Assembly (NCBI RefSeq): GCF_000613805.1 | Contig: NZ_BAJR01000015.1 | Location: 1-64,000, forward strand | Source: Phocaeicola paurosaccharolyticus JCM 15092 | Lineage (GTDB): Bacteria; Bacteroidota; Bacteroidia; Bacteroidales; Bacteroidaceae | DNA length: 64,000 nt | Direction of reading: 5' to 3' | In this document: one piece after another, positions 46,336 to 59,086 of the stretch | How the letters are laid out: the number at the start of each line of letters is the position of its first letter | Position numbering within the stretch: the stretch's first letter is position 1 | Translations under genes and position numbers: made by a program | The notes under the pieces: model-generated | Databases searched by the model: none | The model's input: only the letters and a program-made list of their open reading frames with translations | What the model was told of the DNA's origin: nothing

Positions 46336-47397
46336 CTATTGTTTGTTTATATAGTCAGCAATCCATTCACCAACCTCTTTTGTTCCATATTTCTTTCCAC
46401 CTTCAACCTGAATATCCGGAGTACGTACATTCTCATCAAGAGAGGCATTAACAGCTTTTCTAATAATAGTACCCTCTTCTTTTAAGTTGAAATATTCGAA
46501 AAGCATCGCAACAGATAATATCTGCGCTAAAGGATTAGCTATATTAAGCCCTTTTGCTTGTGGCCATGATCCATGAATAGGTTCAAAAACCGGAGTACCC
46601 TCACCTGTTGAAGCTGAAGGAAGCAATCCCATAGAACCACTTATTACCGAACCCTCATCAGTAAGTATATCACCAAAAGTATTCTCTGTAACCATAACAT
46701 CAAAGAAAGCAGGTTCCTGAATCATTCGCATTGCAGCATTGTCAACATACATATAGTCAGTTGTCACTTCAGGATATGAAGGAGCCATCTCTTGAGCTAT
46801 CTGTCTCCACAAACGTGATGAAGCCAAAACATTTGCTTTATCGACAACAGTAAGATGCTTACGACGTTTCATCGCATATTCGAACCCTACTTTAAGAATT
46901 CTTTCTATCTCAGGACGCGTGTACATATTTGTATCGTATGCCTTATCATTATCCTGATACTTTTCACCGAAATACATTCCACCAGTCAGCTCTCGTATAC
47001 AGATAAAATCAGCATCTTTTACAATTTCCTCTTTTAATGGAGATTTATACAGTAGAGACTTAAATGTCTCAACAGGACGTATATTTGCAAAAAGCCCAAG
47101 TTTCTTTCTCATAGCTAATAATCCCTGCTCAGGTCTTACCTTTGCTGTTGGATTATTATCAAATTTCGGATCTCCTACTGCTGAGAATAGAACAGCATCA
47201 GCCTCATTACATATCTCGAAAGTCTCCTCAGGGAAAGGATCGCCAACCTTATCAATTGCATCTGCTCCACAGATTGCATATTTATAGTTTACAGAATGTG
47301 AGAATTTATTGCAAACCGCATTCATCACATTTACTCCTTGTACAGATATCTCTGGTCCTATACCATCTCCCGGTAAAACTGCTATATTAAAATTCAT
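46336..47397 (-). CDS. leuB: 3-isopropylmalate dehydrogenase
   Basis: A 353-residue NAD-dependent dehydrogenase, third step of leucine synthesis. It has [53 protein letters not shown] (substrate loop), [31 protein letters not shown] and [28 protein letters not shown] with the catalytic Asp residues. It is the last gene of the operon and, in a citramalate route, would also act on methylmalate. 11 nt separate it from the preceding gene. Confidence 0.97.
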
Positions 47398-47408
47398 ATT
47401 ATTATCTT

Positions 47409-48953
47409 TTATTTATTGGTATTGTATTTGCTTTCAATGATATTCAACATCTTGATAGTTGCCTTTATCGCTGCTTCTGTCTGGTCGGCATCAAGTCCTC
47501 TGGTTCTGAATATTTTGTCTTCGAAACTCCATGTTATTACAGTTTGCACAAAAGCATCTGTTCTTCCACCTGGAGGAATAGTTACAGCATAATTTGTAAG
47601 CATAGGGAAACTACGGTGAAGTGTAGTCTTATATATTTTTCTCAATGCCCTTACAAAAGCATCATACTGACCATCACCACTTGAGTTCTCCTCATATTCT
47701 ATCCCATTTATCTCTATCTTAACATTAGCCAGAGGCTTAAGTCCTTGTGCAAGAGTGACTATATAGTTCTTTAGCCTCACTGATTCATCCATAACACCAT
47801 GTTTCAGTACATCCGAAACAATGTATGGAAGGTCTTCCTGTGTAACGAGCTCTTTCTTATCACCAAGTTCTATAATTCTTTCAGTAACCTTACGCATTGA
47901 ATCTTCATCAAGTTTAAGTCCAATGTCCTGAAGGTTTTTAAGAATATTTGCTTTACCACTGGTCTTTCCAAGTGCATATTCACGCTTTCGTCCGAATCTC
48001 TCAGGAAGGAGCGAGTTGCAATAGAGATTGTTTTTATTGTCACCATCAGCATGCACTCCGGCAACCTGTGTAAACACATTCTCACCTACTATAGGCTGGT
48101 TGGGTGGTATTGTAATACCTGAATAAGACTCAACTACTTTACTTACATCATTCAGTTTGCTCTCATCAATGTTTGTAACAGCATCAAAATGATCACTCAG
48201 GATAGCCTGAACACTTGCAAGAGGTGCATTACCAGCTCTCTCACCAAGTCCGTTTATAGTAGTGTGCAACCCCTTCACTCCACTCAATACTGCGGCAAGC
48301 ACATTACTTACAGCCAGATCATAGTCATTATGAGCATGGAAATCAAAATGAAGTTTCGGAAAACGTTTCTTCATCTTGCGCATGTATTCTATAACCTGAA
48401 GAGGATTTAGAATACCAAGAGTATCAGGAAGCATAAACCTCTTTACACTTGTTTTAGACAAAGCTTCAACAAGATTGAAGACATATTCAGGAGACTCTTT
48501 TATACCATTACTCCAATCTTCAAGATAAACGTTTACTGATATATCATTGTCATCAGCATATGCAATAACATTAAGAATATCCTTGATATGTTCCTCTGGC
48601 GACTTAGCTAGTTGCTGTGTGCAATGTTTGCATGAACCTTTACAAAGCAGGTTCAACACTTTACATCCGCATCTGTTAATCCAATCAACTGAAGAATGAC
48701 CATCAACAAAACCAAGTACCTCTACCCTATGTAACATGTTTCTTCTAGCAGCCCAATCGCAAATCATTTCCACAGCTTCATATTCGCCATCGGAAACCCT
48801 TGCGGAGCCGACCTCAACTCTGTCTACCTTAAGTTCTTCAAGAAGTAGCCGGGCAATCATCAACTTTTCGTGAGGGACAAAAGAGACACCGCTGGTCTGC
48901 TCGCCATCCCGAAGAGTTGTATCCATTATCTCTATTTGGACACTTTTTCCCAT
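47409..48953 (-). CDS. (R)-citramalate synthase-like / alpha-isopropylmalate synthase family protein
   Basis: A 514-residue HMGL-like aldol enzyme: [21 protein letters not shown] at the N-terminus with the metal Asp, [43 protein letters not shown], and a C-terminal LeuA-type dimer/regulatory domain ([32 protein letters not shown]). It is clearly different from the leuA at the start of the operon. Such second copies in Bacteroidales are taken to be citramalate synthases feeding isoleucine. The start overlaps leuD by 22 nt; the Met at residue 10 (48926) is the alternative. Confidence 0.85.
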
Positions 48954-49528
48954 TCTTCTATTTTATTCTTATTGCTTAAAAGAAAATCTATATCGTCAAG
49001 TCCATTCATCAGGCAATGTTTCTTGTATGCATTGATCTCAAATGACTCACTTCTTCCTGTATCCATGTTTGTAACCTTTTGAGCAGGAAGATCTACCTCA
49101 ACTTTCATATCAGGATTCTTATTAATAGAATCGAATAGTTCTTGTAAAAAACTTTCGCTAACGACCACCGGTAATACAAAGTTATTAAGCTCGTTATTAC
49201 GATGTATATCAGCAAAGAAGCTGGATATAACCACTCTAAATCCATAACCGGCAATAGCCCACGCTGCATGCTCACGACTAGATCCAGAGCCGAAGTTTTT
49301 ACCTGCTACCAGGATTTCACCTTTATATTTAGGATTATTCAGGACAAAATCTTTATTCAATGTTCCATCTGCATTATATCTCCAATCACGGAAAAGGTTA
49401 TCTCCGAAATATTTCTCTTCTTTAGTAGTTGCCTTAAGGAAACGAGCAGGTATAATCTGGTCTGTATCAACATTCTCAAGAGGAAGAGGGATGCAAGTGC
49501 TATTTATTATATTAAATTTCTGTTTCAT
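48932..49528 (-). CDS. leuD: 3-isopropylmalate dehydratase small subunit
   Basis: A 198-residue small subunit of the aconitase-like isomerase. It has STCIPLPLENVDTDQIIPARFL at the start and VAGKNFGSGSSREHAAWAIAGYGFRVVISSFFADI, the swivelling-domain signature. It works with LeuC to isomerise 2- to 3-isopropylmalate and, in the citramalate route, citramalate to methylmalate. It lies 69 nt downstream of leuC. Confidence 0.97.
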   Translation of the reverse strand: MKQKFNIINSTCIPLPLENVDTDQIIPARFLKATTKEEKYFGDNLFRDWRYNADGTLNKDFVLNNPKYKGEILVAGKNFGSGSSREHAAWAIAGYGFRVVISSFFADIHRNNELNNFVLPVVVSESFLQELFDSINKNPDMKVEVDLPAQKVTNMDTGRSESFEINAYKKHCLMNGLDDIDFLLSNKNKIEEWEKVSK

Positions 49529-49597: not shown

Positions 49598-50980
49598 TTA
49601 GTTTATCAATTCTCTTGGGTCTGTAATAACACCTGTGATAGCTGCAGCTGCTGCAACAAGAGGACTTGCAAGTAGAGTACGGGCACCAGGACCTTGTCTA
49701 CCTTCAAAGTTTCGGTTACTTGTTGACACAGAATATTTTCCTGCTGGGATCTTATCATCATTCATTGCCAGACAAGCAGAACATCCCGGTTGACGTATCT
49801 TGAAATCAGCATCTGTCAAGATCTTATCTATTCCTTCACTCTTTATCTGCTCAAGTACCATCCAAGAACCAGGAACAAGCCATGCTGTTACATTCTCCGC
49901 TCTCTTCTTTCCTTTTACTATAGATGCAAAAGCTCTGAAATCTTCAATTCTTCCATTTGTACAAGCACCAAGGAATACATAGTCTATTTTCTTACCCAAT
50001 AGTTGTTCGCCAGAGTTGAAACCCATATAGTTCATAGATTTCTTGAATGAGTCGCTATCATCGTAAGGTATTGTATCATTAATAGCCATTCCCATGCCTG
50101 GGTTTGTACCATATGTTATCATTGGCTGAATATCAGCAGCATCAAACTTAACTTCTTTGTCAAATTGTGCATCATCATCACTCCTCAAAGTCTTCCAATA
50201 TTCAACCGCCTTATCCCACTCTTCTCCCTTAGGAGCATATTCTCTTCCTTTCAGATATTCGATAGTCTTCTCATCAGGTGCAATCATACCTCCTCTTGCT
50301 CCCATCTCAATACTAAGATTACATAATGTAAGCCTTCCTTCCATAGAAAGTTCCTTTACTACCTCTCCTGCGTACTCAACAAAATATCCTGTTGCGCCAC
50401 TGGTAGTCATCTTCGACATCATATAGAGAGCAACATCCTTAGAGGTGACTCCTTTACCTAACTTACCATCAACAGTAATCCTCATTGTCTTTGGACGTGA
50501 CTGAAGTATGCATTGAGAAGCCATTACCATCTCAACTTCACTTGTACCGATACCAAAAGCGACTGCTCCCATAGCCCCATGAGTAGATGTATGCGAGTCG
50601 CCACATACAATTGTCATTCCTGGTAGAGTAAGTCCTCTTTCCGGACCTACTACATGGATGATACCATTCTTAGGATGCATCATTCCAAAATATGATAAGC
50701 CGAAATCCTTTGCATTCTTTTCCAGAGCATCTACCTGATTCCTTGATACAGAATCCTCAATAAGCTTATCCTGATCATGAGTTGGTGTATTGTGATCGGG
50801 TATACACACTATCTTATCAGGACGGAAACATTTCAGGTTCCTATTCTTCATGCCTTCAAAAGCTTGTGGGCTTGTCACCTCATGACAGTATAGTCTGTCA
50901 ATATATAACTGGTTGGGACCATCATCAACAACTTGAACTACATGTGAATCCCATATTTTATCAAATAAAGTATTTGCCAT
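49598..50980 (-). CDS. leuC: 3-isopropylmalate dehydratase large subunit
   Basis: A 460-residue aconitase-family subunit with the 4Fe-4S cluster. The cluster cysteines lie in [15 protein letters not shown] and [63 protein letters not shown] are typical. The length is normal. It starts 4 nt after the leuA stop, so translation is probably coupled. Confidence 0.98.
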
Positions 50981-50984
50981 AATA

Positions 50985-52481
50985 TTATTTTCTGAACTTA
51001 TTTATACAATCAATATATGCCTCTACAGATGCAGCTATGATATCTGTGTTTGCACCAAATCCATAATACATCTGACCATCAAATTCAACTTGCATATGAA
51101 CTTTTCCCATATCATCACTTCCCTTGCTTATTGCCTGAATTGTGAACTCCTTGAGAACCATCTGTCGGTCAATAATCTTCTTCAATGCCTTTATTGCAGC
51201 ATCAACAGGTCCATTACCAGATGCAGCTGCTTCAAAATGTTCACCAGAGATAGAAATTCCTATGCTTGCAACAGATCTGACACCTACTCCACTTGTAACC
51301 TGAAGATAGTCAAGTTTGATATGGTGATTCATGCTGCGATCAGCACCTGCAAGAACTAGTATATCATCATCTGTGATATCCTTCTTTTTATCAGCTAACT
51401 TTAGGAAATCTTCGTAAACCTTATCAAGCTTATCCTGATCCATATCAACACCAAGAACTGTAAGTCTATGCTTTAAAGCCGCTCTACCACTCCTAGCTGT
51501 CAATACAATAGCATTATCATCTATACCAACATCTTTAGGGTCTATAATCTCGTAGGTCTGAACATTTTTCAAGACTCCATCTTGATGGATCCCTGAAGAG
51601 TGAGCAAAAGCGTTTCTACCAACAATAGCTTTATTAGGTTGAACAGGCATATTCATTAAACTCGATACCATCCTACTTATAGGATATATCTTCTGTGTAT
51701 TGATATTAGTCTGAACATCTATGTTATTATGACATTTTACAATCATTGCAACCTCTTCTAATGAGGTATTACCGGCACGCTCTCCAATACCATTGATTGT
51801 AACCTCAACCTGACGTGCTCCATTGATAACTCCACTCATAGTATTAGCTGTTGCCATTCCTAGATCATTATGACAATGGGTAGATATTATTGCTTTATCA
51901 ATATTACCTACATTCTCCATAAGATATTTAATTTTAGCGCCATACTCATCAGGCAAGCAATAACCGGTAGTGTCAGGGATATTGACTACAGTAGCACCAG
52001 CTTTAATTACCGCCTCTACGACTCTAGCAAGATATTCGTTATCAGTTCTACCTGCATCCTCAGCATAGAACTCTACATCTTCTACATATCTCTTTGCGTA
52101 TTTCACTGCTGCTACGGCACGCTCTATAATCTCATCTTTAGAAGAGTTGAACTTATATTTAATATGAGATTCTGAAGTTCCAATACCTGTATGAATTCTT
52201 TTTCGCTTTGCATATTTCAGCGCCTCAGCAGCGACATCTATATCTTTTTCAACAGCTCTTGTAAGAGCACAAATTGTTGGCCATGTAACTGCCTTTGAAA
52301 TCTCAATAACTGAATTGAAATCACCTGGACTTGAAATAGGAAAACCTGCTTCAATAATGTCAACGCCCAATAGCTCAAGCTGTCTGGCTACCTGAATTTT
52401 CTCTACTGTGTTCAGCTGACAACCTGGGACTTGTTCACCATCTCTAAGAGTGGTATCAAAAATAAACAATCTTTCACTCAT
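50985..52481 (-). CDS. leuA: 2-isopropylmalate synthase
   Basis: A 498-residue LeuA, first committed step of leucine synthesis (acetyl-CoA plus 2-ketoisovalerate). It has [63 protein letters not shown], and a C-terminal LeuA dimer domain ([37 protein letters not shown]) where leucine feedback acts. The frame is open upstream to 52586, but that extension runs through the attenuator terminator, so the MSERLFIFD start at 52481 is correct. It is controlled by the leader at 52521-52654. Confidence 0.98.
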
Positions 52482-52520
52482 ATACTTTCGAATCAATTTA
52501 TTACTAATCACAAATAAAAA

Positions 52521-52550
52521 AGCCTCTCTCACTGGGAAGTGAGAAAGGCT
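52521..52550 (-). terminator. leuA attenuator terminator
   Basis: The minus strand reads AGCCTTTCTCACT-TCCC-AGTGAGAGAGGCT followed by TTTTTT. This is a 13-bp stem (one G-U pair) with a T tract, 40 nt before the leuA ATG. Its 5' arm and loop contain CTCACTTCCC (52534-52543), which is exactly complementary to GGGAAGTGAG in the leader (52586-52595). Confidence 0.93.
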
Positions 52551-52573
52551 CAATATATCTTCTTTGTATACAT

Positions 52574-52654
52574 TTATGCACAACACTCACTTCCCGCTGA
52601 CCTGGCCAGTAGAATAATAATACCGCATAGCAAAATATGTATAGAAATAATCAT
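52574..52654 (-). CDS. leu operon leader peptide (attenuator)
   Basis: An ATG at 52654 opens a 26-codon frame ending in TAA at 52574. It begins [20 protein letters not shown] and continues GSECCA: 7 Ile and 4 Leu, including a run of III-LL at codons 12-16. Codons 20-23 contain GGGAAGTGAG, the antiterminator arm. Starvation for Ile or Leu would stall ribosomes about 11 nt upstream of this arm, leaving it free to pair with 52534-52543 and block the terminator; complete translation would cover it and allow termination. The peptide itself needs no function. It is too short for usual gene finders. Confidence 0.88.
52586..52595 (-). promoter_or_regulatory. antiterminator arm of the leu attenuator
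   Basis: GGGAAGTGAG on the minus strand lies at the end of the leader peptide frame. It pairs perfectly over 10 bp with the 5' side of the terminator stem, the mutually exclusive structure needed for attenuation. Confidence 0.85.
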
Positions 52655-52674
52655 AATCTTCTTCTTTATGGCTG

Positions 52675-52705
52675 CAAAGTTATAGCTTTTTTCTAACACG
52701 CAAAA
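52675..52705 (-). promoter_or_regulatory. promoter of the leu operon
   Basis: The minus strand has TTTTG (52701-52705), 18 nt, then TAACTTTG (52675-52682), matching the Bacteroidetes TTTG / TAnnTTTG pattern. The leader ATG is 20 nt downstream. Confidence 0.8.
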
Positions 52706-52859: not shown

Positions 52860-54317
52860 TTACTTAATACTATTCAATAAATCTAATTTACCTTCATCAA
52901 TAAGTTTCAAAATAAGTTCTCCAAACAATGTATTCTGCCATGCAAACCAGGCTCTGGTAAACTTTGAAGCATCATCCTTGTTAAATGATTCATGAATAAA
53001 TCCAGTTCCAGCATCTGTATCCATCAACATCTTGATACATTGTTTTATCTCTGTATCATCTTTACTGGTGAAAGCCCTCATCATTATACTCATTGGCCAA
53101 ATCATATCATAGCCCACATGAGGTCCACCAATACCTTCACCTGCATTACCTTTAAAGAAATATGGATTATCATTACTCCAGACAAACTTTCTTGTATTTT
53201 TATATATCTGATCATTTAAATCTACATCACCAAGATATGGCATAGCCAAAAGACTTGGTACATTTGCATCATCCATAAGCATCTGATTCCCGAATCCATC
53301 AACTTCGAATGCATATATCTTGCCATATTTAGGATGGTTATATACTGCATATTTCTTCAATGCATTTTCTACCTCATTAGCAAGTTGGGTACACTCATTT
53401 GAGAGTTCATTATTCTTATTTACATCCTTAAGTATCTCTGCAGCCTTTTTCAATGAAGATACTGCAAAGAAATTTGATGGTACTAAGAACTGAAATGTAG
53501 TAGCATCATCCGAAGGGCGGAATGATGAAGCAATAAGTCCGACAGGATTTACAGGAGTCCCCAGGCCATCATTGCATAAAGTATCAAGCGCTCTTTCTGT
53601 AACACGTTGGAATTTATATTTCCCTCTGTCATTCTTTCTCTGCTGGTCTTTAAATGTAATTAAGATATTCTTTATTGCATTTATCCATGCATCATCGAAA
53701 ATAGAAGTATCACCGGTGACTTTCCAATAGTGATAGGCAAGACGAAGAGGATAACATAATGAATCTATCTCCCATTTACGTTCATGAAGTTCTGGTTTCA
53801 TATCAGTCTTATCACTCATCCAATGGCCATCAGGTATTGCCCCATTATTAAAAGCATTAGCATAGGGATCAATATTAATACACTTAAATTGCCTACGGAT
53901 AACTCCTTCTAGCATACTTTTTAATTCAGGATCTGAATTTGCCAATTGTACATAAGGCCATACCTGTGCTCCCGAATCTCTGAGCCACATAGCATGAATA
54001 TCACCTGTATAGACAAAAGTATCAGGTTTGCCATTATCCGATTTTGAGTAATGTACTGTTGTATCCAAAGTATTTGGAAAACAGTTTGCAAACATCCACG
54101 ATAACTTTGCATTACTGATTAGTTTGCATACCCGTTCAATCTTCTCATCTACAGCTTTAGAGCGAAAAAGACGCTCGTTCACCTTAGGTCTGTTATTCTT
54201 TACTATAGCATCATTGACTACTGTAAATTCTATTTTCTGAACTACGTTAGAATAGGTAGATTCACCATATGCAAACAAAACAGTAAATACAAAAGGGCAC
54301 AAATATCTTCTCTTCAT
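52860..54317 (-). CDS. GH125 exo-alpha-1,6-mannosidase
   Basis: A 485-residue exported enzyme (signal near MKRRYLCPFVFTVLFAYGES). Family GH125 features are visible: TFVYTGDIHAMWLRDSGAQVWPY, KCINIDPYANAFNNGAIPDGHWMSDKTDMKPELHERKWEIDSLCYPLRLAYHYW and GGPHVGYDMIWPMSIMMRAFTS. GH125 enzymes invert at alpha-1,6-linked mannose. It follows GH92 by 4 nt, and the two would remove alpha-mannose side chains and backbone residues in sequence in the periplasm. It is the last gene of the locus. Confidence 0.94.
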   Translation of the reverse strand: MKRRYLCPFVFTVLFAYGESTYSNVVQKIEFTVVNDAIVKNNRPKVNERLFRSKAVDEKIERVCKLISNAKLSWMFANCFPNTLDTTVHYSKSDNGKPDTFVYTGDIHAMWLRDSGAQVWPYVQLANSDPELKSMLEGVIRRQFKCINIDPYANAFNNGAIPDGHWMSDKTDMKPELHERKWEIDSLCYPLRLAYHYWKVTGDTSIFDDAWINAIKNILITFKDQQRKNDRGKYKFQRVTERALDTLCNDGLGTPVNPVGLIASSFRPSDDATTFQFLVPSNFFAVSSLKKAAEILKDVNKNNELSNECTQLANEVENALKKYAVYNHPKYGKIYAFEVDGFGNQMLMDDANVPSLLAMPYLGDVDLNDQIYKNTRKFVWSNDNPYFFKGNAGEGIGGPHVGYDMIWPMSIMMRAFTSKDDTEIKQCIKMLMDTDAGTGFIHESFNKDDASKFTRAWFAWQNTLFGELILKLIDEGKLDLLNSIK

Positions 54318-54321
54318 AAAA

Positions 54322-56612
54322 TCATTTTTTTAGTTCATTACTAAATGAGTATGGGAAATCAGATTCCTTAATACCACGCGATTTATTTGGTTTATCACTC
54401 ATCTTGAAATTAATCTTAATGCCACCTAGAAGTTGTTCATGAGTAATATAGTTTCTAGAATAATCATTACCATTGACCTTCATTGCAAATATATATTTAT
54501 TTTCCTGACTATTATCCTCTGCACTGATCTCAACACTTTTTCCGTTCTCAAGATGCAATTTCACATTATTAAAATAAGGTGTACCTAGGACATATTGATT
54601 TGAACCGGGACAAACTGGATAAAAGCCTAAAGAAGAGAATACATACCAGGCTGATGTCTGACCATTGTCCTCATCTCCACAATATCCATCAGGAGCTGAT
54701 GAATATAACTGATCCATGACTCTTCTTATCCAGTATTGCGTTTTCCATGGCTCACCAGAATAATTATACAAATAGATTAGATGTTGTATTGGCTGATTAC
54801 CGTGAGCATAGTTCCCAAAATTCATTATCTGCATCTCACGAATCTCATGAATTACTCCATGATAATAACTACTATCAAAAATAGGAGGAAGAATAAAAAC
54901 AGAATCAAGCATCATATTAAAGTTCTTGTCTCCACCCATCAGATCGATCAGACCTTTTGGATCATGAAATACTGACCATGTATAATGCAGACTATTGCCC
55001 TCTGTAAAAGAGCCACCCCATTTGAAAGGATTGAAATTTTCTTCAAAAGAGCCATCAGCCTTACGACCTGCCATAAGTTTAAACTCCTTATAGTAAAGAT
55101 TCTTATAGTTCATCGCACGTTTGGCATAGACTTCAATCTCCTTCTTTGGTTTCTTCAAAGCCTTTCCAAGCTGATAAATGCTCCAATCATCAAAAGCATA
55201 TTCTAAAGTGCGTGCTGCACTCTCATTGATGCCAATATTACATGGAACATAACCTAGCTTGTTGTATTCCTTATATCCTAATCTACCGGTAGACTGTACT
55301 TGAGGATGAACATTATTCGCTCCGTGGTTAACAGCTTTCCAAAGAGACTGAATATCATATCCGCGTATTCCTTTTAAATAAGCATCTGCAACAACAGAAG
55401 CTGAGTTGTTTCCAACCATGCATCCTCTATGTCCAGGACTCGCCCACTCTTGTAAGAATCCACTCTCCTTATATGTATTAACAAGACCTTCCTGAATCTT
55501 TTCACTCATATTTGGATACATCAAATTTAAGAATGGGAAAAGGCAGCGGAAAGTATCCCAGAATCCTGTATCTGTAAACATATAGCCAGGAAGAACCTTC
55601 CCATTGTAAGGACTATAGTGTACCACTTTGCCATCCTTATTATATTCATACAACCCCCTTGGAAAAAGTAATGATCTATATAGACACGAATAAAACGTTC
55701 TCTTATTATCTATATCGTCGTCATTGACTTCAATGCGGCCCAATACTTCATTCCATCTTTCTCTTCCGTTTTTTGCTACTTCATCAAAGTTCTTACCATC
55801 CAACTCTTTCAGATTGAGTTCAGCCTGTTCGTGACTAATAAAAGATGAAGCAACTTTAGCATTTACTTTCTCTCCCTTACTTGTCTTAAATCCAATAATA
55901 CCACCAGCATGCGAATCAACTGCCTCAAGGGAATTATCATCAATTATACCACTCTTCACTACAGAACTAAAGTCAAATGGTTTATCAAAAACCATCACAA
56001 AATAATTCTTAAAATTATCTGGTACACCACCGCTATTTTTTGTGGTGTAACCAATTATTTTTCTCTCTGATGGAATAATTTTAACATACGAACCGTTGTC
56101 GAAAGCATCAATAACGACATAAGAGTTATCACTTTGCGGGAAAGTGAATCTGAACGCTGCAGCTCTCTCTGTTGGTGCAATTTCAGTGGTTACATCAAAA
56201 TCAGCAAGATAAACACTATAATAATATGGCTTTGCAACCTCTGCCTTGTGAGAAAACCAACTTGCTCTTTGATCCTGATCAAAACCGGTTTCCCTGTGAT
56301 TGGCATTATTGAAAACTGTCCATAATCATTTATCCAAGGACTTGGTTGATGTGTCTGTTTGAAACCTCGTATCTTATCAGCACTATACACATAAGCCCAT
56401 CCATCTCCCATCACTCCTGTCTGTGGAGTCCAGAAGTTCATTCCCCAAGGCATCGCTATAGCAGGATATGTATTTCCCGTTGACAATGCATGTTTTGATT
56501 CGCTTCCTACTAATGTACTTACGTAATCAACAGGATCAGTAACTATCTTTGCATCTATCTTACCTAGAACAAACAAAAATATTACCAGTATTGAAACACC
56601 TCTCTTTATCAT
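54322..56612 (-). CDS. GH92 alpha-mannosidase-type enzyme, frameshifted, atypical catalytic Gln
   Basis: Two frames form one protein: 56190-56612 (signal peptide and TLVGSESKHALSTGNTYPAI, GMNFWTPQTG) and the 54322-55998 frame, whose reading extends up to 56281. One T added to the run at 56281-56284 restores GKPVFDQDQRASWFSHKAEV and a protein of about 763 residues. GH92 hallmarks are TFYSCLYRSLLFPR, FTDTGFWDTFRCLFPFLNLMYP, GCMVGNNSASVVADAY and APDGYCGDEDNGQTSAWYVFSSLG with the base-side Asp. The usual GNEP motif with the acid Glu reads HGNQPIQH (Gln codon 54793-54795). It overlaps the preceding gene by 4 nt. Confidence 0.88.
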
Positions 56613-59086
56613 CTTTTATTTATTTTGTTATCAAGCATTTTAATAAAATATCCTCCAACTACCGAACGAGCCTGAAATCCTCTCTGTCTTGGTTCTATTG
56701 TATATACCCAGTCGGACATAGGAATACGGTCCGGAGTAGCCCCTACATACTTATATATAGGAGATATGAATTTCTGGAATGTCTCTTTATCTTTTGCCAG
56801 AGTAGCTGTCCATATTATCCAGTCTGTCTTGGTATATGTCTCACGGCTATCAAGAGGAAGGCCATATTCGTTCTGTTTAGTAAGATAGAATGGTATCTCT
56901 TTCTCAGCAATGGCTGGAGAGAATATCCCCAAGTTCAATATTTTATCCCAAACAAGGTTATATTTCTGGCTCCATGTACCCGGTTTGTCAAATGTCAATC
57001 GATAATGATCTCCGTCATTAGCCATCTTCTCCCATTTGCTAGCCATATCCTTTGCTATAGATGTATATTTCTCACCCAGTTCTCTCTTGCCAAGCATATC
57101 GGCCAGATAACCATAAGAGGCTATACCTAGAATAGCTTTTACAGACAAGTTTGCATTATGAGCAAAATGTCCTGCGAAGTCATCAGTACATAACTGATTT
57201 TCAGGGTCAAGTCCATTCCCGACAAGATAGTCAGTCCATATGGTAAGTACATCCCAATGTTTCCTTGCATATTCGGCATTGCCGTCCATAGCTGCTATTG
57301 CAGCTGTCACTATCAGCATGTTTCCACTCTCTTCAACAGGCATATCACCACCGTAAGTCTGTCCGTTGGCTAAAGGGTAAGTTCCCACATCATGAGCTGC
57401 AAAAGGTTTATTCCATCTACCACTCTCGCTATAATAGAATATATGGTTAAGAAGTCCCTTTGCTAATTCGGTATTATATAATAGGAACATTGGAGAAGAT
57501 GGATAGGTTATATCCACAGTACCTATTGACCCATTGCTTAAATTTTCCTTCGACAAGAAAAGCAGATCACCATTAGGGGCCTGAACTAACTTATGAGCTG
57601 CAATGGCTTGTCTATATGCTAAAGCACAAAGCTGTGCATATTCATCTCCTCCTATTCTTGATGCATCCTCCATCATTTTTTTATCAAAGGAGTTGCATCT
57701 GTTTATAATAGATGTGTATTCTTTTGAAGCATTTACAAACTCTTTCTTAATATTCTTATTACCATTTCTGTTCCAATATGGTCGGAGGTTCTCATTGAAA
57801 TACTGTATTGAGAATATATCATCATATCCCAACATAATATATCCCTTAGAAGAGCTTACCTTACCTAGTTCTTTGATAATGGCAAAGTTATTCTGTGTTT
57901 CAGATATTACTTTTACACTCTTTCCTAAAAGGAAAGACCTCCTGATGAGTTTGGTGTCACCTACAGAATATCTGCTGTTATCCTTATCGGCAACCATATA
58001 AAAATATCCCCAATCAATTCTTACATCATCACCTTTCTTTTTAAGTATATTTTGAGCTTTGCTTCCAGTTCTCAAGTAAACCATATTGTTCTCAACAGAT
58101 TCTTCAGTGACAGATTCTTGATAAGGTACATCCAGTGCCCATCGTGGAGAAGCTTCAAAATAGATATCTACATCATGCTTTTTTCCATCTCTTGATTCAA
58201 CAGAATAAGAGATATAGTTTATTGGACGGCTCATCAAGTCAATGTCATCCATAAGTAATGGTGCTGTAAATGTAAGATCTAAGTTGATAGGACCACATTC
58301 GAATTTATAAAGAGTTTGCAATGGCTTTACCTGCGCAGATAACTGTTTTGCCTGTGAATTAAAAAACTTATAGTTTTCCTTCTCGAGCATAAGTCCGAAG
58401 TCAAGCAACGCACCTCCAACACGATTGTAACAATACGCAGAAATTATATTACGGCCTTTCTTTAGAGTACTTACAACTCCAGGAGCAAGTTTCTGTAATA
58501 CATTTTTCTTGCAACTATTACCTGTGTCTACTACTTTAATTCCATTTACATATATTATAACGTCATCATCATGAGAATATTCAAGGAATATACTTTTTCC
58601 CTTCAAATCATCATTTAACTCAAACTCTCTTCTTACCCAAATATATTTCTCATTCCACTGAGTCTTAGCTGTTATCTCTTCTTTTGTTCCAAATGCAGCT
58701 CTTCCAGATTTCCAACTGCTGTCATCAAAATTCTTTGTTTCCCATCCTGATGCAGGTTGATCAGTTGTATATTTCGCAGTCCATTCCCCTTGTTCACTTG
58801 TCTTTACCAAAGGAAGCAATTCCACATCCTCAGCTCCCATAAACCTATATAATTTCCCATCTACCTTAGCTACACCTATCATTGGAAAATCTTTTCCTGT
58901 CCAATGTTTCACTGGGCCATCGTAAAGATTATCTCCAAAAGACCATCCAGATGTGTAAGGGTCAATTGTTATGAGCGGATAAGCTGATGCACGTAAATTA
59001 CCATCATCGTTTTGTCGTATCTCACCTTTGCATATACCTGCAATACTTAGTAAGAAAGCAATTAAAATAAAGTTTGTTTTCATCAC
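56609..59086 (-). CDS. DUF4965/DUF5127/DUF1793 (GtaA glutaminase-like) protein
   Basis: An 825-residue exported protein with signal MMKTNFILIAFLLSIAGICKG. The N-terminal part has a sugar-binding-like jelly roll (SWKSGRAAFGTKEEI, IWVRREFEL, VIIYVNGIKVVDTG). The body matches the DUF5127-DUF4965-DUF1793 arrangement of the GtaA-like family (RIGGDEYAQLCALAYRQAIAAHKLVQ, DVGTYPLANGQTYGGDMPVEESGNMLIV, GLPLDSRETYTKTDWIIWTATL). Members are often in glycan loci and are probably glycosidase-like. Function here is inferred from the mannosidase neighbours. It starts 242 nt after the serine hydrolase. Confidence 0.85.
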   Translation of the reverse strand: MMKTNFILIAFLLSIAGICKGEIRQNDDGNLRASAYPLITIDPYTSGWSFGDNLYDGPVKHWTGKDFPMIGVAKVDGKLYRFMGAEDVELLPLVKTSEQGEWTAKYTTDQPASGWETKNFDDSSWKSGRAAFGTKEEITAKTQWNEKYIWVRREFELNDDLKGKSIFLEYSHDDDVIIYVNGIKVVDTGNSCKKNVLQKLAPGVVSTLKKGRNIISAYCYNRVGGALLDFGLMLEKENYKFFNSQAKQLSAQVKPLQTLYKFECGPINLDLTFTAPLLMDDIDLMSRPINYISYSVESRDGKKHDVDIYFEASPRWALDVPYQESVTEESVENNMVYLRTGSKAQNILKKKGDDVRIDWGYFYMVADKDNSRYSVGDTKLIRRSFLLGKSVKVISETQNNFAIIKELGKVSSSKGYIMLGYDDIFSIQYFNENLRPYWNRNGNKNIKKEFVNASKEYTSIINRCNSFDKKMMEDASRIGGDEYAQLCALAYRQAIAAHKLVQAPNGDLLFLSKENLSNGSIGTVDITYPSSPMFLLYNTELAKGLLNHIFYYSESGRWNKPFAAHDVGTYPLANGQTYGGDMPVEESGNMLIVTAAIAAMDGNAEYARKHWDVLTIWTDYLVGNGLDPENQLCTDDFAGHFAHNANLSVKAILGIASYGYLADMLGKRELGEKYTSIAKDMASKWEKMANDGDHYRLTFDKPGTWSQKYNLVWDKILNLGIFSPAIAEKEIPFYLTKQNEYGLPLDSRETYTKTDWIIWTATLAKDKETFQKFISPIYKYVGATPDRIPMSDWVYTIEPRQRGFQARSVVGGYFIKMLDNKINKR

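Follow-up and report, generated by a model that had tools for sequence, protein, structure and literature searches.

A candidate ribosome-mediated attenuator with isoleucine and leucine codons precedes the leu operon of Phocaeicola paurosaccharolyticus and of many other Bacteroidales

The leuL leader of Escherichia coli acts by attenuation, and the ilv, his, phe and trp attenuators of the same species have leader codon runs that are cognate to the product of the operon. Within the Bacteroidota, a trp counterpart is represented in Rfam by RF01692 (Bacteroid-trp, the Bacteroidete tryptophan peptide leader RNA), which is listed by Weinberg et al. 2010 (PMC2864571). The transcriptome of Flavobacterium psychrophilum, from the same phylum, provided "strong clues" for leader-peptide attenuation before amino-acid operons, and the available parts of that article name no leu leader (PMC9723704). 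sORFs are mentioned by Ryan et al. 2020 (PMC7366714), and further inputs to such leaders were proposed with the DnaA-dependent his attenuator of E. coli (PMC10989985). In the open-licence literature searched, to the extent of the text available, we found no description of a leu leader in Bacteroidota, and no Rfam family matches one. The mechanism discussed here is of a known kind, and the leu leader itself is, within these sources, without an earlier description in the phylum. A first, sequence-only reading of this DNA had called attenuation of this type little described in the phylum, a statement that must be tempered by RF01692 and the Flavobacterium clues.

The DNA analysed (the window) is a stretch of 64,000 nucleotides from Phocaeicola paurosaccharolyticus JCM 15092 (GCF_000613805.1, NZ_BAJR01000015.1, positions 1 to 64,000). 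The leader region lies on the minus strand, as do all features located below, and is flanked by a GH125 gene and leuA. It begins with a predicted promoter (52675..52705) consisting of TTTTG at -33, an 18-nt spacer and TAACTTTG at -7; we take the TTTTG-N18-TAACTTTG type to be the promoter motif of Bacteroidota. An ORF of 26 codons from ATG to TAA follows (52574..52654), which includes seven Ile and four Leu codons. Codons 12-16 (52607..52621) read ATT ATT ATT CTA CTG, or Ile-Ile-Ile-Leu-Leu, and are the proposed sensor. To our knowledge, Shine-Dalgarno signals are hardly used in Bacteroidota.

Leader codons 20-23 contain GGGAAGTGAG, the antiterminator arm or region 2 (52586..52595), whose exact complement CTCACTTCCC, region 3 (52534..52543), has two possible partners, one being region 2 and the other lying in the terminator hairpin. 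When the leader was shuffled 5000 times, an exact 10-nt complement to the 5' side of the terminator arose by chance in 8 cases. The predicted intrinsic terminator, the 3:4 hairpin (52520..52551), has 14 pairs and a 4-nt loop, is followed by a T run (52516..52521), and lies ~38 nucleotides ahead of the leuA ATG (52481). The sequence-only reading had described this promoter, leader, arm and terminator, and its letters, counts and coordinates are all right. Absent from it was a further stem, 1:2, in which region 1 (52605..52614), overlapping the sensor codons, pairs with 52592..52601, overlapping the antiterminator arm; pairing and covariation in the alignment described below support both sides of this putative protector stem. 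A longer leuA ORF, starting from GTG at 52586, crosses the terminator and was taken as fortuitous.

Three marks of an attenuator are thus present on the evidence of sequence and covariation, namely a run of cognate codons in a short leader ORF, an intrinsic terminator before the first gene, and an antiterminator that excludes the terminator. The spacing of the stall site and the stop codon also fits, under an assumed 13-nt footprint. We consider it very probable, from sequence comparison, that this element belongs to the classic trp/leu type of ribosome-mediated transcription attenuators, and that it controls a joint leucine and isoleucine operon, leuA-leuC-leuD-cimA-leuB. In the proposed mechanism, RNA polymerase would start just downstream of 52675 to make the leader RNA, and a ribosome would begin the 26-codon leader. 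If Ile-tRNA or Leu-tRNA were scarce, the ribosome would stall on codons 12-16 and cover region 1, so that region 2 would pair with newly made region 3, no terminator would form, and transcription would reach leuA. If both tRNAs were plentiful, the ribosome would reach the stop codon and cover region 2, the 3:4 hairpin would form, and transcription would end. When the leader is not translated, region 1 could pair with region 2, favouring termination. We infer that the leader is translated, that transcription does terminate at the hairpin, and that the element responds to Ile and Leu.

E. coli leuL likewise encodes a cognate-codon leader peptide ahead of leuA, and both leaders favour CTA, leuL having CTA CTA CTA CTA. 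However, the Phocaeicola run is Ile-Ile-Ile-Leu-Leu, its promoter is of the Bacteroidota type, and its operon has a citramalate-synthase-like gene. That gene was not mentioned in the sequence-only reading. The first structural gene is leuA (50985..52481), encoding 2-isopropylmalate synthase (NCBIfam NF002086, 746 bits, cut-off 532), and it is followed by leuC (49598..50980; TIGR00170, 640 bits, cut-off 560), leuD (48932..49528; NF002458, 240 bits, cut-off 167), the cimA-like gene (47409..48953), and leuB (46336..47397; TIGR00169, 437 bits, cut-off 353). The cimA-like gene, placed between leuD and leuB, encodes a probable (R)-citramalate synthase: it scores 649 bits with the Leptospira CimA model NF042433, under that model's cut-off of 950, and 348 bits with the best 2-isopropylmalate synthase model (cut-off 517). 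It misses the threshold of the citramalate synthase model TIGR00977 (188 bits, cut-off 450), and the closest solved structure to its product is the citramalate synthase of L. interrogans (3ble, 400 bits). Citramalate synthase, together with LeuB and LeuCD, leads from pyruvate to isoleucine. On the assumption that the gene product has CimA activity, the operon most likely contributes to the synthesis of leucine and of isoleucine, and the inclusion of a CimA-like enzyme would account for the Ile codons in the leader.

The leader might instead sense leucine only, with incidental Ile codons, as would suit an operon whose first gene is leuA and as in E. coli leuL, whose run is of Leu alone. We regard this as improbable, since the six-codon sensor stretches of related leaders hold Ile and Leu in equal measure (293 versus 290 of 774 residues, with 2 Val) and since the operon has a CimA-like gene. 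In those counts, which cover the six codons ending at the last Ile or Leu, the richness in Ile and Leu is partly by construction, because the leaders were selected for it; the scarcity of Val is not. The position of the CimA-like gene also argues against a sensor of leucine alone. Among the matches listed, a looser test for the leader, defined below, was passed by 29 of 42 order genomes in which a CimA-like gene adjoins leuA, and by 0 of 7 in which it lies on a separate contig (Fisher p 0.0009). These 49 order genomes were hand-sorted among the matches listed, a second hit being required, and fragmentary cases and one contig-end case were omitted. Two of the seven genomes with the CimA-like gene on another contig still have an Ile/Leu-rich leader peptide, and we treat the association of cimA with the leader as supportive only.

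Several features of the neighbourhood are recorded here in their own right. Directly upstream of the leu operon, genes for GH125, GH92 and a glutaminase-A-like protein stand in a row (52860-59086), perhaps a mannan-degrading cluster. The GH92 gene (54322-56612) is split into an N-terminal piece of 140 amino acids and a catalytic piece of 558 amino acids in different frames. The same genome has a split trpB and a short thrA frame, which together with the split GH92 gene points to assembly indel errors or real decay. An rRNA operon, its 5S end ~0.5-1.3 kb upstream of the leu leader, occurs on the same strand in Phocaeicola vulgatus (L005:1-1857), Bacteroides fragilis (L015:1-1699) and Parabacteroides faecalis (L022:1-74); the Rfam scan found no rRNA operon upstream of the leu leader in the window.

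For comparison, we collected leuA loci from the 80 nearest records and from samples of the family, order and phylum, giving 247 loci, of which two were skipped and duplicates were merged. The 80 nearest records and the family sample, a few of the 80 being labelled as other families, are called the near loci. A strict test, applied mechanically, called for a terminator, a complementary arm and an Ile/Leu-rich ORF in register. It was passed by 65 of 97 distinct leuA upstream regions. Only 1 of 970 dinucleotide shuffles passed it, as did 9 of 3434 pieces taken from elsewhere in those loci. By eye, 12 of the 32 regions that failed have the element and ~20 seem truly to be without it. In the looser test, the terminator was found by folding; 103 of 133 near loci passed and 30 failed, and 34 of 67 loci from other Bacteroidales families passed. 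Among the controls, 20 of 1145 shuffles passed, as did 96 of 3000 other pieces (2-3%). Carriers include Phocaeicola vulgatus (L005), Bacteroides fragilis (L015), B. xylanisolvens (L054) and several Prevotella records. Elsewhere in the phylum, 2 of 29 leuA loci passed the looser test, which is near the control level and is no evidence for the leader there; in those bacteria the operon may begin with a gene other than leuA.

The promoter motif is also retained. Of 127 related leaders, 120 have TAnnTTTG in the 60 nucleotides that precede the leader start, where 7% would be expected from shuffles, and only 7 have it between the leader start and leuA. The motif therefore does not favour a transcription start downstream of 52574, which the sequence-only reading had named as incompatible with its proposal. 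Among the ~20 near loci that seem to be without the leader, L012, L026 and L095 have TAnnTTTG shortly before leuA, as if the attenuator had been lost.

Eight doubtful regions that had passed (L032, L065, L109, L175, L203, L208, L210 and L222) were removed by eye, and ribosome positions were analysed in 129 leaders. The distance from the last Ile or Leu codon, placed in the A-site, to the arm has a median of 14 nucleotides (interquartile range 13-15), at which a stalled ribosome would leave the arm just clear. The stop codon lies a median of 19 nucleotides past the start of the arm, so a ribosome on the stop codon would cover the arm. In a footprint model that assumes a leading edge 13 nucleotides beyond the first A-site base, and that folds the RNA as it stands when region 3 has just been made, the predicted probability of the 2:3 stem in the P. 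paurosaccharolyticus leader is 1.00 through A-site Leu16, dropping to 0.80, 0.49 and 0.00 over the three codons that follow. Averaged over the leaders, it declines from 0.92 to 0.06 across a similar stretch of codons. The earlier proposal that stalling at codons 12-16 frees the arm, and that a finished peptide covers it, agrees with this model.

Folding at the moment when region 3 is complete replaced an equilibrium fold of the whole leader, which was dropped as a test of the switch because it does not discriminate: the terminator is favoured at nearly every ribosome position. With region 4 present, the equilibrium probability of the terminator in the P. paurosaccharolyticus leader is at least 0.76 at all ribosome positions except codons 11 and 12 (0.08 and 0.01), and its mean over the 129 leaders is never below 0.73. 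If the attenuator works as proposed, the switch must therefore depend on the order in which the stems form. This leader has a weak 1:2 stem, and the equilibrium fold gives it a 2:3 probability of 1.00 when no ribosome is present, compared with a mean of 0.35 for the 129 leaders. Untranslated RNA from this locus may therefore read through more than that of its relatives.

The choice of Leu codons in the sensor is unusual. CTA constitutes 35% of sensor Leu codons, versus 2.2% in 342 mechanically called ORFs from 96 of the loci, and it makes up 1.6% of the Leu codons in LeuA genes. The CTA share is higher than in ORFs of the leader's own locus in 88 of 95 leaders and lower in 4. This preference is not explained by the 1:2 stem, since CTA is equally enriched outside it (114 of 292 upstream of the stem). 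In P. paurosaccharolyticus itself, CTA is only moderately rare, at 12.3% of Leu codons in 34 window ORFs. In Prevotella-type leaders (for example L037, L048 and L080), the first Leu codon CTA is replaced by CGA (Arg) with the A kept, a hint that this base is constrained at the RNA level.

Many Bacteroides and Phocaeicola records share a strongly conserved stretch of 12 leader residues, which holds the non-cognate residues His, Cys and Gly. Such conservation would be expected if the nascent peptide arrested the ribosome, with the peptide sequence, and not the supply of tRNA, as the sensor. However, leaders in other Bacteroidales families keep the Ile/Leu run amid very different neighbours, a peptide sensor leaves the preference for rare CTA unexplained, and the leaders of other operons have other cognate runs. 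An arrest peptide is accordingly very unlikely in our estimation, and codon-dependent stalling remains the preferred explanation.

The competing stems were examined in an alignment of 73 sequences (67 near and 6 order loci), picked among 138 passing segments because their arms were similar enough to align; leaders whose arms differ clearly were omitted. Paired cells make up 89.9% of the 2:3 stem, with 41 cells changed on both sides; the figures are 87.5% and 27 cells for 3:4, and 80.5% and 89 cells for 1:2. For each of the three stems, none of 500 shuffles reaches the observed percentage paired, number of both-side cells or covariation score. Sliding the partners reduces all three measures in every stem (the 1:2 covariation score is 0.383, versus at most 0.134 when slid), in a control that is biased toward the observed structure because that structure was read off the window's own sequence. 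When pairs with a both-side change are counted instead, 2:3 is weakly above shuffles (26 of 500 reach it) and 1:2 is not above them (236 of 500 reach it), with 5 pairs also found for 1:2 at one slide. The sequence-only reading had looked to relatives for conserved leader codons and for compensatory changes in the 2:3 and 3:4 stems; the aligned leuA upstream regions have both, which supports its proposal of an attenuator.

Distant Bacteroidales retain the same layout with other paired arm letters, for example GAGAATGGT with GCCATTCTC and AGGGGGTT with AGCCCCCT. Where the arm has an exact GGAAGTG, 64 leaders read it in frame 0, while 8 read it in a different frame and have their stop codon within the arm. 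Because the arm is read in two frames, its conservation is that of RNA and not of peptide.

In folding calculations, a 36-nt piece containing the terminator has an energy of -20.2 kcal/mol (z -6.7), matched by 0 of 200 shuffles, and a 76-nt piece in the 2:3 form has -23.1 kcal/mol (z -3.45), with 1 of 200 shuffles as good. A hairpin of this strength could give a short RNA by itself, and it might be nothing more than a terminator, constitutive or partial, or mark where a small RNA ends, with a fortuitous ORF beside it. There is little chance of this, given that the leader frame, the spacing and the three stems are conserved and covary, and that codon runs match the product in five operons.

In other phyla, operons of this kind are commonly under T-box or riboswitch control, and the leader RNA is structured and conserved, as it would be if a riboswitch, T-box or protein-binding leader sensed the amino acid or tRNA directly, without translation. 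At the gathering score, no Rfam family matches anywhere in the 64-kb window, RF01692 (cut-off 49 bits) matches neither the window nor any of six leu loci scanned, and none of the 17 weak matches obtained with E up to 10 is to a T-box or riboswitch. Those weak matches do include two that might suit a protein-binding leader, PyrR at 20.2 bits (cut-off 54) and L10_leader at 12.7 bits (cut-off 44). Against sensing without translation stand the absence of even a weak T-box or riboswitch match in the window, the codon run as the most conserved feature, the arm read in two frames, and the occurrence of wholly different arm letters. Direct sensing is hence extremely improbable.

If codons are the sensors, leaders of other operons should differ in their runs, and they do. 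The P. paurosaccharolyticus genome has leaders before ilvD (MIVSIYSNLSIINIINLVVVCRGNEKGL; L266, G000:C74), hisG (MVIITTHHHHYPND; L287, C77), trpB (MNKNMQNMYWWRYLQLIKS; L312, C83) and pheA (MKSLYNTYFFFYYFYFSNKVKREFVCVR; L346, C53), each with a terminator-like hairpin by eye, and these carry cognate runs as do the E. coli ilv, his, phe and trp attenuators. In this genome and its relatives, we read 20 of 20 ilvD loci, 20 of 21 hisG loci (all but L288, which begins at a contig end), 20 of 25 trpB loci (the other five being partial or under the family cut-off) and 19 of 21 pheA loci (L352 and L355 are partial). Runs of Val precede ilvD in 19 of 20 loci, His precedes hisG in 19 of 20, Trp precedes trpB in 18 of 20, and Phe/Tyr precedes pheA in 19 of 19, and each of these runs is found in 0 or 1 of 19-20 loci of the other three operons. 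Within the 133 leuA regions, there are 13 Val, 2 His, 4 Trp and 1 Phe/Tyr runs. A strict Ile/Leu run (5 of 6) is present in only 68 of those 133 regions, versus 2 ilvD, 1 hisG, 0 trpB and 0 pheA loci. No other single observation argues as strongly as this diagonal pattern for the codons as the sensors.

The trpB leader of P. paurosaccharolyticus belongs to RF01692 (61.2 bits, cut-off 49), no other of these four loci matching an Rfam leader family, and its layout by eye is a cognate ORF, an arm and a terminator. RF01692 is from the same phylum as the leu leader, but concerns the trp operon and Trp codons. Unlike the E. coli ilv, his and phe attenuators, the Bacteroidales loci scanned with Rfam (two ilv, two his and two phe) reached no leader family. 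The arm and terminator letters of the ilv and leu leaders are alike by eye, which suggests that these leaders share an origin.

An uncontrolled count across the phylum, taken from the best 30 of 128 genomes with hisG, gave 21 of 30 loci with a His run ahead of the gene. Of 30 ilvD loci elsewhere in the phylum, 15 were read, and 12 of these have at least five Ile, Leu or Val residues in six, which is likewise uncontrolled and a lead only. Upstream of thrA, inside which a homoserine dehydrogenase domain falls, six relatives were read, and L357, L358 and L360 have Thr-rich leader peptides, such as MTIYYLHTTTTLGMGHMTTTMSTSTTMTPRG, that are possible thr leaders. Five of the six (L357, L358, L359, L361 and L362) share the ending MTPRG, the letters of which contain an inverted repeat CCCC/GGGG just ahead of the stop codon.

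Taken more broadly, we think it likely that Bacteroidales run an amino-acid regulon (leu/ile, ilv, his, trp, phe and perhaps thr) by attenuation that is largely absent from Rfam. In that regulon, the leu leader would be a two-input sensor of Ile and Leu, fitted to a merged operon for leucine and citramalate-derived isoleucine, whose use of CTA would have arisen independently of E. coli leuL.

The mixed Ile and Leu codons ahead of an operon that combines leuA with a CimA-like gene would be a simple example of a leader reading out its pathway, and the proposed attenuator offers a specific, testable point at which common gut bacteria may control the synthesis of branched-chain amino acids. Along with the leu leader, the ilv, his, trp and phe leaders suggest attenuation as a main mode of amino-acid control in Bacteroidales, and the hisG leaders extend this suggestion to other parts of the phylum. 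If such a regulon is indeed run by attenuation, transcription and translation must be coupled at Bacteroidales leaders. These leaders could then serve as ready-made reporters of whether ribosomes follow RNA polymerase closely in Bacteroidota.
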